From the NCBI RefSeq assembly GCF_003003215.1, contig NZ_PVUF01000003.1:248001-312000 (forward strand): 64,000 bases of DNA. The letters are read 5' to 3'. The notes below the pieces were generated by a model. The model saw only the letters and a program-made list of their open reading frames with translations. It had not been told where the DNA came from and did not search any database. The stretch comes from Tritonibacter scottomollicae. GTDB taxonomy: Bacteria; Pseudomonadota; Alphaproteobacteria; Rhodobacterales; Rhodobacteraceae. Made by a program: the position numbers and the translations under genes. Of the stretch, positions 8,684 to 54,639 are shown piece by piece. Numbering within the stretch: the first letter of the stretch is position 1; each line of letters opens with the position of its first letter.

Positions 8684-9103
8684 GCCGCGCGGTGATCTAT
8701 CGCATGTCCCTTGCCGCGACCTTAGGTGGTCCCGTCGGCCCGGTTTCCTGTGGTCTGCTGGCGCCTTCTCCTCCGACAGCGCCGACGATGACAACTCAGC
8801 GGCGACCGGGCAGAGCTGTGCTGGTTCCGGCAGGCATCGCCCCCATAGTAACCCGCTGACGTCGCGCCGTGCCCTCACCTTCAGGCAAGGCGCATCAAGA
8901 TCACGCATCAATGTTTCAGCGTCATTTGCAATCATCAGTTGACCCTGACCGAGCCATCCCGACCAGACCAGATGTGAACCGCCTGCGCAAATGCACCGCG
9001 CCGGGCCAAAGGCCCGGCGCTACGCCCAACGGGCGGATCTGCATGTCAATGCAGGTGCAACGGGCGGGAGCCTCCCCGCCGCGGCCTCATCAATGCCGGC
9101 GGA
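8684..9103. other. Convergent intergenic region between pit and argF
   Basis: 420 bp between two converging genes. The first 310 bp show no supported gene or hairpin; the right third holds one copy of the palindromic intergenic element (8998-9070). Confidence 0.5.
8998..9070 (+). repeat. Palindromic intergenic element, copy A (half element)
   Basis: A 10-bp perfect stem GCGCCGGGCC/GGCCCGGCGC (8998-9007 and 9011-9020, loop AAA), then the shared block GCCCAACGGG (9024-9033), then a variable stem CTGCAT/ATGCAG (9039-9044 and 9049-9054), then the end block GGGCGGGAG (9062-9070). It lies between converging pit and argF. Confidence 0.75.
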
Positions 9104-10030
<927 letters not shown>

Positions 10031-18308: not shown

Positions 18309-19187
18309 ATGAGCGATACGACCTACACCCCTCCGAAGGTCTGGACCTGGGATCAAGCAAGCGGTGGCAAGTTTGCCTCCATCAACCGTCCCATCGCGGG
18401 TGCCACCCACGACAAGGAGCTGCCCGTTGGGGATCACCCGTTCCAGCTCTATTCGCTGGCCACCCCCAATGGCGTCAAAGCGACCGTGATGCTGGAAGAG
18501 CTGCTGGAACTGGGCGTGAAGGACGCCGAGTATGATGCCTGGCTGATCAACATCGGTGATGGCGATCAGTTCGGCTCCGGGTTTGTCGAAATCAACCCGA
18601 ATTCCAAGATCCCGGCGCTGCACGACCGCTCTGGCGAGGCCCCGGTGCGCGTGTTCGAAAGCGCATCGATCTTGATGCATCTGGCCGAGAAGTTCGGTCA
18701 TTTCCTGCCCAAGGACGGCCCCGCCCGCACCGAGGTGATGAACTGGGTGTTCTGGCAGATGGGCTCTGCGCCCTATCTCGGCGGCGGCTTCGGCCATTTC
18801 TACGCCTACGCACCAGAGAAATTCGAATACCCGATCAACCGCTTCACCATGGAAGCCAAACGCCAACTGGACGTGCTGAACCGCGAATTGGCGGGCAAGA
18901 CCTATCTCGGCGGTGAAGAGTATTCGATCGCCGATATCGCGATCTGGCCTTGGTATGGTCAGCTGGTTCTGGGGCGTCTCTATGATGCGGCAGAGTTCCT
19001 GGACGTGGAAAGCTACGAGCATGTGATGCGGTGGGCCAAGGCGATCGACGCCCGCCCTGCCGTGCAACGCGGCCGCATGGTCAACCGATCCTTTGGCGAA
19101 TTGTCCTCGCAATTGCGCGAACGCCATTCGGCGGAGGATTTCGCAACCCGGACCCAGGATAAGCTGGAGTCCGAAGCGGCGGAATAA
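18309..19187 (+). CDS. yghU: Glutathione S-transferase, YghU type
   Basis: 292-aa GST of the nu class, whose members reduce disulfides using two glutathiones. The sequence follows E. coli YghU closely by inspection: KVWTWDQASGGKFASINRP, LPVGDHPFQLYSLATPNG, INIGDGDQFGSGFVEINPNS, FESASILMHLAEKFG, FGHFYAYAPEKFEYPINRF. ATG 18309 follows GAGG; a start five codons earlier is possible. Single gene with its own terminator. Confidence 0.94.
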   Translation: MSDTTYTPPKVWTWDQASGGKFASINRPIAGATHDKELPVGDHPFQLYSLATPNGVKATVMLEELLELGVKDAEYDAWLINIGDGDQFGSGFVEINPNSKIPALHDRSGEAPVRVFESASILMHLAEKFGHFLPKDGPARTEVMNWVFWQMGSAPYLGGGFGHFYAYAPEKFEYPINRFTMEAKRQLDVLNRELAGKTYLGGEEYSIADIAIWPWYGQLVLGRLYDAAEFLDVESYEHVMRWAKAIDARPAVQRGRMVNRSFGELSSQLRERHSAEDFATRTQDKLESEAAE

Positions 19188-19210: not shown

Positions 19211-19243
19211 AAAGCCGCGCCGCATCCCGGCGCGGTTTTCTTT
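19211..19243 (+). terminator. Terminator of yghU
   Basis: GCCGCGCCG, loop CATC, CGGCGCGG, then TTTTCTTTT. Confidence 0.85.
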
Positions 19244-19289
19244 TGCTCCGTTGGGCCTTGGTCCGTGACATATCCCAGATAGGGGAGCC

Positions 19290-19452
19290 CTCCCGCCCCC
19301 GCTGCAGGCGCCCTGCCCTTGGCAGAGCACCCTGGCAGGGTTGGGCCGGGCCTCCAGCCCCCATCGGGGGCTGGAGGCAGCGCCGGGCCGAATGGCCCGG
19401 CGCCACGCCCAACGGGAGCGGATCACCCAAGTGATCCGGCGACGGGCGGGAG
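19290..19452. repeat. Palindromic intergenic element, copy B (most complete copy)
   Basis: Bounded by CTCCCGCCC (19290-19298) and GGGCGGGAG (19444-19452). Internal structure: GTTGGGCCGGGC block; a 12-bp perfect stem CCTCCAGCCCCC/GGGGGCTGGAGG (19351-19362, 19366-19377); a 10-bp stem GCGCCGGGCC/GGCCCGGCGC (19380-19389, 19394-19403); the block GCCCAACGGG; and a 7-bp stem GGATCAC/GTGATCC (19420-19426, 19431-19437). It lies between converging yghU and sseB genes. Confidence 0.8.
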
Positions 19453-19484
19453 AGCCCCCGTCTCTGTTCTGCGCAATCGGATCG

Positions 19485-20276
19485 TTATTTCAAACGCGGG
19501 GGCTTGGCCGGATCTGATCCCGGCATCTGCGGCTGATAGCTTTGGGCGGCTTCCACCTTCGGCAGGTCGAACCGCAACCCCACGCGCGACAGCCGCGCCG
19601 AGATCTCCTCGCTGGCCGCAAAGAACCCCACATCCAGCGCTCCGGCCTCGATCCCCGAAAAGGTCAATGCCTCGCCGGCGGCCTTCGCCAGCGCGGCCTC
19701 GGCCCCTTCGGTTGTACCGATAAAGGCCAAGAGGTGACCGCTGCCGCCGCTCTCATAGGTTACTGCGGCAAGATAGGCGGTCTGCGCCAGGCCGGCGGCA
19801 GTCGCCAGCTTGGCATCCAGCGCTGTCAGCAGAACTTCGGGCAGCCCCTTGGGCGGGCGCACCTCGGATATGGATGCCTCCACCTCGCCCGGCGCATGCG
19901 ACAGCGTCTCTGCCAGCCAGCCCATCGCCGCCTCCGGGATCAGGATCGACGACGGCGCAACCTCCAGATTGACCCCCAGACCAATGCCCTGCCCGGCCAG
20001 CATCTGCGCGATCACCCGACCTGAAAGCGCGGCATAGGGCACGATCCGGTCGGCAAACTGCGCCAGACGTTCCTGGCGGTCGAACACCAGAACAAACTGC
20101 CCCTCGCCAGTATCAAACACCTGCGGGCTGATCCGCTCGCCCTCCGGCTCCTTGTCCAGCAGCATGAACAACTCGCTATCCGCAAGCCGTTCGAAAAACC
20201 GCAAACGGGCCGCGTCATCTTCCGGAGCCGCCTCCATGGCTGCGTGAGCCAGATCCAGCGGGGTCAGTTCAGTCAT
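19485..20276 (-). CDS. SseB family protein
   Basis: 263 aa with an SseB N-terminal domain (about 1-125: LFMLLDKEPEGERISPQVFD, DRQERLAQF) and an SseB-C-like second half. Function in non-pathogens is unknown. Two adjacent ATGs exist (20279 and 20276). It overlaps the end of the upstream uracil-DNA glycosylase gene by 8 nt, so the two form an operon. Confidence 0.88.
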   Translation of the reverse strand: MTELTPLDLAHAAMEAAPEDDAARLRFFERLADSELFMLLDKEPEGERISPQVFDTGEGQFVLVFDRQERLAQFADRIVPYAALSGRVIAQMLAGQGIGLGVNLEVAPSSILIPEAAMGWLAETLSHAPGEVEASISEVRPPKGLPEVLLTALDAKLATAAGLAQTAYLAAVTYESGGSGHLLAFIGTTEGAEAALAKAAGEALTFSGIEAGALDVGFFAASEEISARLSRVGLRFDLPKVEAAQSYQPQMPGSDPAKPPRLK

Positions 20277-20868
20277 CATCCATCAGCTCCTTCACCCTCG
20301 CACGCAGGACCGGCAGCAGCTCTGCCTCGAACCAGGGGTTGCGTTTCAACCAAGCCGTATTGCGCCAGGACGGATGAGGCAAGGCGAAGACATCCTCCGG
20401 CAGGGATCTCCAGCCCCGCACGACCTCCGTCACGCCTTTGCGGGTGCCGAGGTGATAGCGATGCGCATGCCCGCCAACCAGAATACGCAGGCGCACCCCG
20501 TCCAATGCGTCCATCACGCTGTTGTGCCAGGTTTCACCACAGATGCGCGGTGGCGGCAGGTCGGCCTTCTTGGCGTCATAGCCGGGAAAACAGAACGCCA
20601 TGGGCACGATGGCCACCCGTTCACGGTCATAGAATTGCGCCTCGCTCAGCCCCAGCCATGCGCGCAACCGGTCGCCGGAGGGATCGGTAAATGGTTTACC
20701 ACTTTCATGCACCCGCAGCCCCGGAGCCTGACCGGCGATCAAGATCCGTGCACCGCCCGCGAACCAGACCACGGGACGCGGCCGATGGGCCGTTTGCGTC
20801 GCCGCGAACCGCTCGGCACAGATGCGACATTCGGCAATCATTTGCTGCAGTTCCGAGACCCGCTTCAC
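20269..20868 (-). CDS. Uracil-DNA glycosylase family protein
   Basis: 199-aa UDG-superfamily protein that would excise uracil or related bases from DNA. GQAPGLRVHESGKPFTDPSG is the catalytic loop; VAIVPMAFCFPGYDAKKADL and ALPHPSWRNTAWLKRN (the HPS substrate loop) follow. An early C-x-x-C (CRIC) is present, but the full Fe-S cysteine set of family 4/5 UDGs was not found. The start is taken as GTG 20868, which has AAAGGA upstream at good spacing; further upstream codons are not homologous. Confidence 0.87.
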   Translation of the reverse strand: MKRVSELQQMIAECRICAERFAATQTAHRPRPVVWFAGGARILIAGQAPGLRVHESGKPFTDPSGDRLRAWLGLSEAQFYDRERVAIVPMAFCFPGYDAKKADLPPPRICGETWHNSVMDALDGVRLRILVGGHAHRYHLGTRKGVTEVVRGWRSLPEDVFALPHPSWRNTAWLKRNPWFEAELLPVLRARVKELMDDD

Positions 20869-36285: not shown

Positions 36286-36359
36286 GCGCCGGGCCGTCAG
36301 GTCCGGCGCTCGGCCCAACGGGCGCGATGCATGTTTCATGCCGTCGCAACGGGCGGGAG
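36286..36359 (+). repeat. Palindromic intergenic element, copy C (half element)
   Basis: Stem GCGCCGGGCC/GGTCCGGCGC (36286-36295, 36300-36309; one pair becomes G-U), block GCCCAACGGG (36313-36322), variable stem GCGA-t-GCATG / CATGC-cg-TCGC (36324-36333, 36337-36347), end block GGGCGGGAG (36351-36359). Confidence 0.75.
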
Positions 36360-36396
36360 AACGCCACTCTCGCCGCTGATTTCTCGAATGATCCGA

Positions 36397-36672
36397 TCAG
36401 GGACGATCCGGCAGACGGTTGAGCCAGTCGAAATCGTTGACGCTGATGACACCGGACCAGATCACCCCGGCGATGATCGCCCAGAGTACAGCCGCCGCCC
36501 CGGTCGTGATCCAGGCCTTCTGCTTCAGAAAATGCCGCTCGGGCGCGCCAGCATGGGTGCCGGGCACCACCGCTCCGGCATCGCCCTGGGTCTCCAATCG
36601 GATCGGGATCACCACCAGAAAGGTCATGAACCAGATGACCGCATAAAGCACGAGACCGGATGTGATACCCAT
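36397..36672 (-). CDS. DUF1467 family membrane protein
   Basis: 91 aa with two membrane segments (LVLYAVIWFMTFLVVIPIRL and AWITTGAAAVLWAIIAGVIW) around a short polar loop. Typical DUF1467 motifs are WFMTFLVVIPIRLETQGD and APERHFLKQKAWITT. A small inner-membrane family of alphaproteobacteria with unknown function. It is the next gene downstream of the epimerase gene on the same strand. Confidence 0.88.
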   Translation of the reverse strand: MGITSGLVLYAVIWFMTFLVVIPIRLETQGDAGAVVPGTHAGAPERHFLKQKAWITTGAAAVLWAIIAGVIWSGVISVNDFDWLNRLPDRP

Positions 36673-38677: not shown

Positions 38678-40461
38678 CAATCGTCTTGCGGGATCACCCG
38701 CAGGCCCAGCTCCATCAGCTGCTCTGCCAGCGGCTCGGACGGTGCCGCCATCATCAGGTCTTCGGCGCGCTGGTTCATCGGGAACATGATGACCTCGCGA
38801 ATGTTGGCTTCATCCGCCAGCAGCATCACCATCCGGTCGATGCCGGCCGCGCAACCACCATGCGGCGGGGCGCCGTATTGGAACGCGTTGACCATACCGC
38901 CAAAGCGTTTCTCGACCTCATCCTTGCCATAGCCGGCAATTTCAAAGGCCTTGAACATGATCTCCGGCTTGTGGTTCCGGATCGCGCCAGAGACCAGCTC
39001 ATAACCGTTACAGGCCAGATCATACTGGAAACCGCGCACGGCCAATGGGTCGCCTTGCAGCGCCTCCATCCCGCCCTGCGGCATGGAGAAGGGGTTGTGC
39101 TCGAAATCAACCTTGCCGGTTTCCTCGTCCTTCTCGTAGATCGGGAAATCCACGATCCAGGCAAAGGCAAAGCGGTCCTTGTCGGTCAGGCCCAGCTCCT
39201 CGCCGATCACATTGCGGGCCCGGCCTGCAACGCTCTCGAAGGTCTTTGGCTTGCCGCCGAGGAAGAAGGCCGCATCGCCGACACCCAGACCGAGCTGCTG
39301 GCGGATTGCCTCGGTGCGCTCGGGACCGATGTTCTTGGCCAACGGACCTGCGGCTTCCATGCCGTTGCCCTGATCGCGCCAGAAGATATAGCCCATGCCG
39401 GGCAGTCCTTCCTTCTGGGCAAAGGCGTTCATGCGGTCGCAGAACTTGCGGCTGCCGCCGGTCGGCGCGGGAATGGCGCGAATTTCGGTGCCGTCCTGCT
39501 CCAGCAGTTTGGCAAAGATCGCGAAGCCGGAGCCCGCGAAATGCTCGGACACCACCTGCATCTTGATCGGGTTGCGCAGGTCCGGCTTGTCGGAACCATA
39601 CCACAGGGCCGCGTCCTTGTAGGAGATCTGCGGCCAGTCTTCGGCGGCATCCACCTTGCGGCCCTTGCCGAATTCCTCGAACACCCCCGCCATCACCGGC
39701 GCGATCGTGTCGAACACATCCTGCTGGGTGACAAAGGACATCTCCAGGTCGAGCTGGTAGAAATCGGTGGGCGAACGGTCGGCGCGCGGGTCCTCGTCGC
39801 GGAAACAGGGCGCGATCTGGAAATACTTGTCAAAGCCGGACACCATCATCAGCTGCTTGAACTGCTGCGGCGCCTGCGGCAAAGCGTAGAATTTGCCCGG
39901 GTGCAGACGCGAGGGCACCAGGAAGTCACGTGCGCCCTCGGGGGACGATGCGGTGATGATCGGCGTCTGGTATTCGTTGAAGCCACGATCCCACATGCGT
40001 TTGCGGATCGACTGGATCATCTGCGAGCGCAGCACCATGTTGTTCTGCATCTTCTCGCGCCGCAGGTCGAGGTAGCGATAGCGCAGGCGGGTTTCTTCCG
40101 GGTATTCCTGTTCGCCAAAGACCATCAGCGGCAGCTCTTCGGATTTGCCGAGCACTTCGATGTCGCGGATGAAGACTTCGACCTCGCCGGTCGGGATCTT
40201 GGCGTTGATCAGGCTTTCGTCGCGAGCCTTCACCTCGCCGTCGATGCGGATACACCATTCGGCGCGCACCTTTTCGATCTCGGCAAACACCGGGCTATCC
40301 GGATCCGCCATGACCTGGGTGACGCCGTAATGGTCGCGCAGGTCGATGAACAACAGGCCGCCGTGGTCGCGGACCCGATGGACCCAGCCGGACAGGCGAA
40401 CGGTTTCGCCGACGTGGGATTTGTTCAACTCGGCGCAGGTATGGCTGCGGTATGCGTGCAT
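38677..40461 (-). CDS. aspS: Aspartyl-tRNA synthetase
   Basis: Class-II synthetase, 594 aa, bacterial type. N-terminal OB anticodon domain ([20 protein letters not shown]), motif 2 region [11 protein letters not shown], bacterial GAD insert (about 280-420) and motif 3 [25 protein letters not shown] is typical of the bacterial branch. ATG 40461 begins [13 protein letters not shown], as in relatives. Whether it is discriminating or non-discriminating cannot be told from these motifs alone. Confidence 0.97.
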
Positions 40462-40784
40462 GGATCTGGTCTCTCTCGGCTGCGGCTGGCGAGATGCGGG
40501 GCATCAGCGCCGGGCAAAATTCATCCGCACCCGTACACAGGGTTCAACCGGTCTTGTCAAGCAAACCGGGCCAATTGACCGACCTCACCGCCCTGTTTTG
40601 CACCACTGCAGCGGCGCGGGAGGCTCCCGCCCACGCGGGCCGCCCTGCACAGGCAGGGCAACACCTTGCGGTTGGGCCGGGCGCCGCGCGTTGCGCGGCG
40701 CCGCAGCCGGTCCCCCGCGGGGACCGGCTGCCCCCTCCGCTCGGGCATCCTGTCTGACACATCCGTCGGGAGAGAGGCGCGTGT
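40462..40784. other. Gap between aspS and pabC
   Basis: 323 bp upstream of aspS and downstream of pabC (both minus strand). It holds element copy D (40624-40731) and presumably the aspS promoter. No supported gene. Confidence 0.5.
40624..40731 (-). repeat. Palindromic intergenic element, copy D (half element, opposite orientation)
   Basis: End block CTCCCGCCC (40624-40632), hairpin GCCCTG/CAGGGC (about 40642-40659), GTTGGGCCGGGC block (40671-40682), 9-bp stem GCGCCGCGC/GCGCGGCGC (40681-40689, 40693-40701), 13-bp stem GCAGCCGGTCCCC/GGGGACCGGCTGC (40703-40715, 40719-40731). Confidence 0.75.
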
Positions 40785-53885: not shown

Positions 53886-54479
53886 ATGGCCAAGCTCTAC
53901 TTCAATTACTCCACCATGAACGCCGGTAAATCGACCGTCTTGCTGCAGGCGTCTCACAACTACCGCGAAAACAACATGCAGACCTATCTGCTGACCGCGA
54001 GCGTTGACGACCGGGCGGGCGCCGGCCGCATTGCGTCGCGCATCGGCATTGGCGCCGAAGCGGATGTGTTCCGACCCGAGGACGACCTGCACGCCCGCAT
54101 CTGCGCCCGGCTAGAGCAGGGGACGGTAGCGGCAATCTTTGTGGATGAGGCGCAGTTCCTGACGCCGGATCAGGTCTGGCAACTGGCCCGTGTGGTGGAT
54201 GACCTGCGCATTCCGGTACTGGCCTATGGGCTGCGGGTGGATTTCCAGGGCAAGCTTTTCCCCGGCTCTGCCACCCTGCTGGCACTGGCTGATGAAATGC
54301 GCGAGGTGCGCACCATCTGCCATTGCGGCAAGAAAGCCACCATGGTTGTGCGCCAGGATGATCAGGGCAATGTTCTGACCGAAGGCGATCAGGTGCAGAT
54401 CGGTGGCAATGAAAGCTACGTCTCCCTCTGCCGCCGCCACTGGCGCGCCGCCATGGGCGATCTACCAGATAACAGCTGA
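53886..54479 (+). CDS. tdk: Thymidine kinase
   Basis: 197-aa type II thymidine kinase, salvaging thymidine to dTMP. P-loop STMNAGKST near residues 9-17; FVDEAQFL; lasso domain zinc ligands in ICHCGKKA and SLCRRHW; YGLRVDFQGKLFPGSATLL. The first Gly of the P-loop is replaced by Ser (YSTMNAGKST). ATG 53886 fits the family start. Confidence 0.94.
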   Translation: MAKLYFNYSTMNAGKSTVLLQASHNYRENNMQTYLLTASVDDRAGAGRIASRIGIGAEADVFRPEDDLHARICARLEQGTVAAIFVDEAQFLTPDQVWQLARVVDDLRIPVLAYGLRVDFQGKLFPGSATLLALADEMREVRTICHCGKKATMVVRQDDQGNVLTEGDQVQIGGNESYVSLCRRHWRAAMGDLPDNS

Positions 54480-54530
54480 GCGTGCTCTGACCGCAAGCGT
54501 CGACCTCAGGTTCGGTCAGGGCCGGTGGGC

Positions 54531-54639
54531 CTCCCGCCCGCACCCGGGCTGCGCCAAGGCGCCGCCGGTTCGGTTGGGCCCGGCACGCAAGGTGCCTTTG
54601 GCACCTTGCGTGCCGCAGCCAGCCCATCGGGCTGGCTGC
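54531..54639 (-). repeat. Palindromic intergenic element, copy E (half element, opposite orientation)
   Basis: End block CTCCCGCCCG (54531-54540), short GCGCC/GGCGC hairpin, GTTGGGCCCGGC block (54573-54584), 15-bp perfect stem GGCACGCAAGGTGCC/GGCACCTTGCGTGCC (54582-54596, 54600-54614), 11-bp stem GCAGCCAGCCC/GGGCTGGCTGC (54615-54625, 54629-54639). Between convergent tdk and the dehydrogenase gene. Confidence 0.8.

Follow-up and report, generated by a model that had tools for sequence, protein, structure and literature searches.

What are the hairpin-rich sequences that recur between genes in this stretch of DNA, and what do they do? In the 64-kb window (the whole stretch that was analysed), a sequence-only reading had listed five such copies and offered three options: REP/MITE-like mobile repeats, transcription-ending structures or structured RNA. 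Our study found all five copies at the locations given and indicates that they are probably lineage-specific REP/BIME-like extragenic repeats, with a conserved fold that works in mRNA 3' ends.

Anatomy of the element

Read towards the hairpin P4, a unit consists of a G-rich arm (P0) able to pair with CTCCC, CTCCCGCCC, a variable hairpin (P2/P3) closed by P1 (GCCC:GGGC), the block (C)GTTGGGC and, immediately 3' of GTTGGGC, P4 itself, a strong GC hairpin. Subtypes add a P5 hairpin and a CCTC-like tail, so that the consensus ends are CTCCCGCCC and, in those subtypes, CCTC; one subtype carries CGTC after CTCCCGCC, with no AT stem. Units are about 75-130 nt long and hold several hairpins.

A search of the window with the covariance model R1 returned six units at 64.8 to 33.6 bits, with the next match at 14.1 bits, although four of the six belong to the 61 home-genome units on which R1 was trained and so match partly by construction (Table 1). 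Copies A and C each consist of one minus-strand unit, D and E each of one plus-strand unit, and copy B of two units face to face across shared hairpins. What the sequence-only reading described as right and left halves is one directional unit, seen on opposite strands. Copy B, described as having both ends, holds as a site, its anatomy now refined to two facing units.

Four of the units lie just past the stop codon of a same-strand gene: A 33 nt past argF (9104-10030, minus strand), the right unit of B 32 nt past an SseB-domain gene (19485-20279, minus), C 37 nt past a DUF1467 gene (36397-36672, minus) and E 51 nt past a thymidine kinase gene (tdk; 53886-54479, plus). The left unit of copy B lies downstream of the ordinary terminator of a gst-like gene. 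No same-strand gene was called before copy D; the preceding stretch (40461-40624, plus) could hold a small gene or an sRNA, or be transcribed in antisense. At the orthologue of the copy E site in genome G180, a facing pair of units is found instead.

Table 1. Elements and associated features in the 64-kb window, with R1 scores for the units
Feature	Position	Strand	Remark
Copy A, closing GC hairpin P4	8998..9020	-	perfect inverted repeat, 3-nt loop
Copy A, unit (P0, CTCCCGCCC, variable hairpin, GTTGGGC)	9018..9078	-	64.8 bits
Intrinsic terminator of gst-like gene (18309-19187, +)	19215..19244	+	hairpin plus T-run
Copy B, left unit, long subtype	19282..19352	+	33.6 bits
Copy B, first shared hairpin	19351..19377	.	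inverted repeat
Copy B, second shared hairpin (P4 of right unit)	19380..19403	.	inverted repeat
Copy B, right unit	19401..19460	-	54.1 bits
Copy C, closing hairpin P4	36286..36309	-	inverted repeat, one non-Watson-Crick pair
Copy C, unit	36307..36367	-	51.3 bits
Copy D, unit	40616..40683	+	37.7 bits
Copy D, two closing hairpins	40682..40731	+	inverted repeats
Copy E, unit	54523..54585	+	50.7 bits
Copy E, two closing hairpins	54580..54639	+	inverted repeats

Copy number and distribution

The ordered pair CTCCCGCCC-N15..45-GTTGGGC has 78 exact matches in the home genome (4.68 Mb), against 1 for the reversed pattern. Taken singly, the 9-mer blocks occur in the window, at one mismatch or fewer, 44 and 34 times against expectations of 45.6 and 32.8. 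Single blocks are therefore at chance level and the ordered pair is far beyond it. The model R1, built from the 61 of the 78 exact units that have a 46-50 nt core, found at least 97 units in the home genome at E≤0.1 (150 candidates were scored in a first look). The expectation of many genomic copies was accordingly borne out, by 78 exact matches and 97 model hits, and the family is one of about a hundred copies rather than only five; alignment, covariance modelling and searches of the genome and its relatives recovered it in the home genome and in some other marine Rhodobacteraceae.

Scans of the order and class, which used the exact pattern only, found it in 70 of 292 genomes of the order. 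Four or more matches occurred in 32 genomes from 12 genera, the largest reversed-control count being 3, and 237 genomes of other alphaproteobacterial families gave 22 matches in 20 genomes, one or two each, against 28 for the reversed control. By exact pattern, the element belongs to about a dozen genera of one family and elsewhere in the Alphaproteobacteria is not above control. When R1 was run over 32 chosen genomes at E≤0.001, units were found in 20 and none in 12.

The argF end was followed across relatives. The home argF has 96 % identity to that of Tritonibacter mobilis, the closest named relative in the argF scan, and 80 named argF loci gave 17 hits at E≤1 in 10 loci: T. mobilis, two Phaeobacter, Pseudophaeobacter, three Leisingera and three Rhodobacteraceae records. 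The element is present at the argF end itself in the home genome (G000), G189, G181, T. mobilis, Phaeobacter sp. HF9A and Leisingera aquaemixtae; one further Rhodobacteraceae record has a weak match there, and the element of locus L075 lies 427 nt further on, not at the argF end. At another site, identified by a convergent gene common to all of them, a unit with altered stems persists in seven species, and in four of these it follows the same SDR gene. With a single element as query, phages gave no match and three megaplasmids did, so a chromosome-only placement was dropped. Two candidate protein partners cannot explain where the element is present or absent, ProQ being found in 0 and an RNB-domain exoribonuclease in all 30 of 30 genomes.

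Fold and covariation

Among the 61 home-genome units, 11 of 19 stem pairs vary on both sides, and the covariation score was 0.332, compared to 0.116 when shuffled and ≤0.126 in slid controls. A score of 0.388 against 0.116 was obtained from 117 distinct units of other genomes, in an alignment fitted to the model. P1 is nearly invariant and hence uninformative on covariation. RNAalifold on a MAFFT alignment returned the invariant stem only, and for this reason the structure was written by hand and its pairs counted. P4 has a median energy of -25.9 kcal/mol in 197 of 204 units (seven were omitted because the motif was altered or the flank was too short), compared to -15.1 in a control of 80 stretches taken 900 nt off, 54 of which also reach -10.

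The loops give the unit a direction. Over 177 units the P3 loops are A-rich (293 A vs 103 T), and the P4 loops are unskewed (182 A vs 177 T). An A-rich P3 loop on one strand means that the unit has a strand, and this is usually the strand of the upstream gene. The option of a structured RNA gains support from the covariation and the strand-specific loop, though the stems show no excess of G-U over A-C (31 vs 41). The middle hairpin shows no folding asymmetry in favour of the sense strand, its antisense folding at least as well; together with the lack of a G-U excess, this leaves RNA unproved over single-stranded DNA. At an orthologous site in two T. mobilis strains (L324 and L317), the P4 loop is inverted, TTC in one and GAA in the other, in copies that are otherwise similar, which is what hairpin inversion would give.

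Placement relative to genes

Placement was surveyed in 204 distinct units, drawn from 63 sources in the home genome, after removal of three duplicate loci that overlapped, and from 99 loci of 20 other genomes, taken from the strongest model hits (E≤0.3). The sample is non-random, units within one genome are related, and the genes were called by a simple codon-score script that misses small ones (the DUF1467 gene was missed by the first caller). Convergent gaps hold 115 of these units; 49 are co-directional in sense, 26 co-directional in antisense and 6 divergent, with 3 overlapping a called gene and 5 at locus edges. A same-strand gene lies upstream in 164 of the 204, at a median distance of 42 nt from its stop. 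Unpaired co-directional units are sense in 37 cases and antisense in 15 (P=0.003). Only 2 of 75 co-directional units occupy gaps of ≤150 nt, compared to 125 of 178 background gaps, a shortage that follows in part from the unit's own length. Neighbouring units ≤250 nt apart are facing in 29 cases, back to back in 5 and in tandem in none.

The 26 of 75 co-directional units that point the wrong way qualify this picture. On the TM1040 megaplasmid (L300:2862-3475), a locus tag number is absent from the gene table between the genes flanking an element, and a hidden gene may account for that element's apparent antisense setting.

The strong bias to convergent genes is also what might be seen if the element acted as DNA, as a cruciform- or hairpin-prone site used by a nucleoid protein or a topoisomerase where convergent genes end. 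The symmetric P4 loops, the equal folding of the other strand and the lack of a G-U excess would suit such a role, whereas a directional unit with its A-rich loop on one strand, and the sense bias in co-directional gaps, would not, and we regard it as improbable.

Relation to U-tract terminators

The sequence-only reading had also raised transcription ending, which is plausible. In its favour are the position of the units and the orthologous exchanges with U-tract terminators described below; against it are the strand-paired comparison and the scarcity of U-tails. By the criterion set, only 4 of 197 units have a U-tail after P4, and a looser scan adds a few. In convergent gaps that hold an element, U-tract terminators were found at 16 of 71 sense and 21 of 71 antisense ends (P=0.445); this comparison of two strands is the fairest test of a terminator role, and it was not significant. 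A first, less strict test on the home genome had been more favourable (6/36 vs 13/31), as had a comparison of units ≤70 nt from a stop (14/112) with element-free ends (29/100), a contrast partly forced by lack of room. Set against antisense-only ends (16/92), the same 14 of 112 gave no significant difference (P=0.43). Since the fairest test was not significant, the earlier looser contrasts should not be leaned on. An ordinary terminator precedes some units: of the 35 that lie >70 nt past a stop in convergent gaps, 14 are accompanied by a U-tract terminator, mostly before the unit (L031, L052, L182, L245 and others).

Orthologous gene ends can differ between species in which of the two they carry. 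The argF end carries the element in some species and a U-tract terminator in others, including three other named Tritonibacter species with a hairpin and T-run (read by eye), and in T. aquimaris (G247) a U-tract terminator replaces the element at the argF, DUF1467 and tdk ends. These swaps fit a role in mRNA 3' ends. A survey of seven gene ends in six genomes, in which one element-bearing argF end was passed over by the gene caller, counted the element at 12, element plus U-tract at 3, U-tract at 6 and neither at 18, compared to 51 with a U-tract and 113 with neither among ends in element-free sets. Where the element occurs somewhere at these seven ends, relatives that lack it mostly have neither element nor U-tract (18/24).

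It could be supposed that the units are ordinary intrinsic terminators that look alike merely through a GC-rich genome, given their 3' placement, their strong hairpin and the T-run after P4 in a few of them. This is very improbable for homologous copies with an invariant motif pair and a U-tail in only 4 of 197.

We favour the mRNA 3'-end reading because of the placement, the sense bias, the strand-specific loop and the covariation, and we infer that the element ends transcription or protects mRNA. Once transcribed, a unit would fold into a compact multi-hairpin 3' end, which may halt either RNA polymerase or a 3'-5' exonuclease; the element would thereby do a terminator's job without a U-tract, perhaps with a protein that recognizes the invariant blocks and the A-rich loop. 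A stronger form of this idea, which we advance only tentatively and think unlikely as a whole, is an undescribed lineage-specific class of structured RNA that makes U-tract-free mRNA 3' ends, has a dedicated protein reading the CUCCCGCCC/GUUGGGC pair and A-rich loop, and multiplied through genomes as a repeat before becoming established as the ends of genes. If the function we infer is true, about a hundred genes in one Tritonibacter, and many in Phaeobacter/Leisingera relatives, end in a conserved RNA fold outside Rfam.

Copying, mobility and transposase

Copies at unrelated sites of the home genome share as much as 86 % identity over about 130 bp, and 96 % over 76 bp, and the similarity stops at the unit borders. 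Such sharp-ended similarity at unrelated sites indicates that units were copied. The dispersed, REP-like part of the sequence-only reading is upheld by about 100 intergenic copies, their 3'-end placement, the inverted pairs and this identity; present mobility is not. The megaplasmids of T. mobilis F1926 and A3R06 carry 21 units each, and no empty site was found in A3R06 for any of the 21 F1926 units, in this comparison of two strains of one species. Eleven were aligned one by one, with flanks 90-99 % identical, two partner units lay within the same alignments, and the remaining eight fall in unbroken A3R06 stretches, three at 96-98 % and five at 95-98 %. Between species the occupied sites differ, and they vary even between close relatives, so the element is not simply present at every locus in related genomes.

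The home genome gave no match to PF01797, the RAYT-type transposase domain, and a RAYT link was rejected on that account. Of 40 genomes searched, 6 have the domain, 3 of them among the 20 that carry the element and 3 among the 20 others. One element-rich genome (G181:C1) has PF01797 matches at three places (four matches).

Alternatively, the units may be what is left of a non-autonomous mobile element (MITE or REPIN-like) and have no function today, in which case their 3'-end bias would only mark the places that tolerate insertion. Closely similar, sharp-ended copies at unrelated sites, facing pairs with TIR-like ends and presence that varies between species at the same gene end all point that way, as does the same 3'-end bias in REPs elsewhere (PMC3733652). 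Stems that covary while the motifs stay fixed, the sense bias and strand-specific loop, the lack of empty sites among the 21 megaplasmid units and the PF01797 results argue against it, and we consider such an origin without function possible but doubtful. If the 3'-end function that we favour is true, the old REP question, domesticated RNA 3' ends or tolerated debris, becomes testable: a structure that covaries and a loop tied to one strand can be traced here in a genome that has no known REP transposase.

Comparison with known systems

GTAG/CGTC REPs and BIMEs are high-copy, extragenic and palindromic, with a 3'-end bias, inverted dimers and varying stems and loops, as far as the main text of Di Nocera et al. 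2013 (PMC3733652) describes them. Like these, the present element is found close to the 3' ends of genes, in convergent and co-directional gaps. Unlike the GTAG REPs of that description, it has no terminal GTAG tag beside a short palindrome, and no PF01797 in the home genome; unlike the CGTC REPs, it was seen by eye to lack the CGTC tag, the 8-9 bp stem starting AT and the CCA tail; and its unit, at about 75-130 nt with several hairpins, is longer than either. Rhodobacter, Roseobacter, Ruegeria and Silicibacter are absent from the main text of that paper.

Like intrinsic terminators, the element places a GC hairpin just past the stop at the ends of transcription units, but it lacks a U-tail in 193 of 197 units and has, ahead of the GC hairpin, a conserved pair of motifs and one more covarying hairpin. 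It resembles the L17 downstream element (PMC2864571) in being structured and downstream of genes, and differs in not being bound to one gene and in having about a hundred dispersed copies per genome. Rfam 15 gave no family at gathering score in the window, and the two hits at E≤1 in 15 loci are not on an element; one locus (L036:8-86, minus strand) carries a SAM_alpha riboswitch at 68 bits, against a gathering score of 36. The attC sites of integrons have a core pair RYYYAAC...GTTRRRY and stand in cassette arrays. By its letters GTTGGGC fits GTTRRRY, but no RYYYAAC partner is present within a single unit, and the units are scattered. Insertion polymorphism, as expected of MITEs, was not seen for the 21 units of the two T. 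mobilis strains. No published description of the element was recognized in the literature within reach, which included the available parts of PMC8632094, PMC1590033 and PMC2267715 and few subscription journals. With 97 model hits and 29 facing pairs, the family agrees with the broad definition of REPs and BIMEs as many dispersed extragenic palindromes, often in inverted pairs. The element is REP/BIME-like by behaviour, without the GTAG/CGTC tags as these are described and without a RAYT in the home genome, and is thus a variant of the extragenic palindromic repeats.
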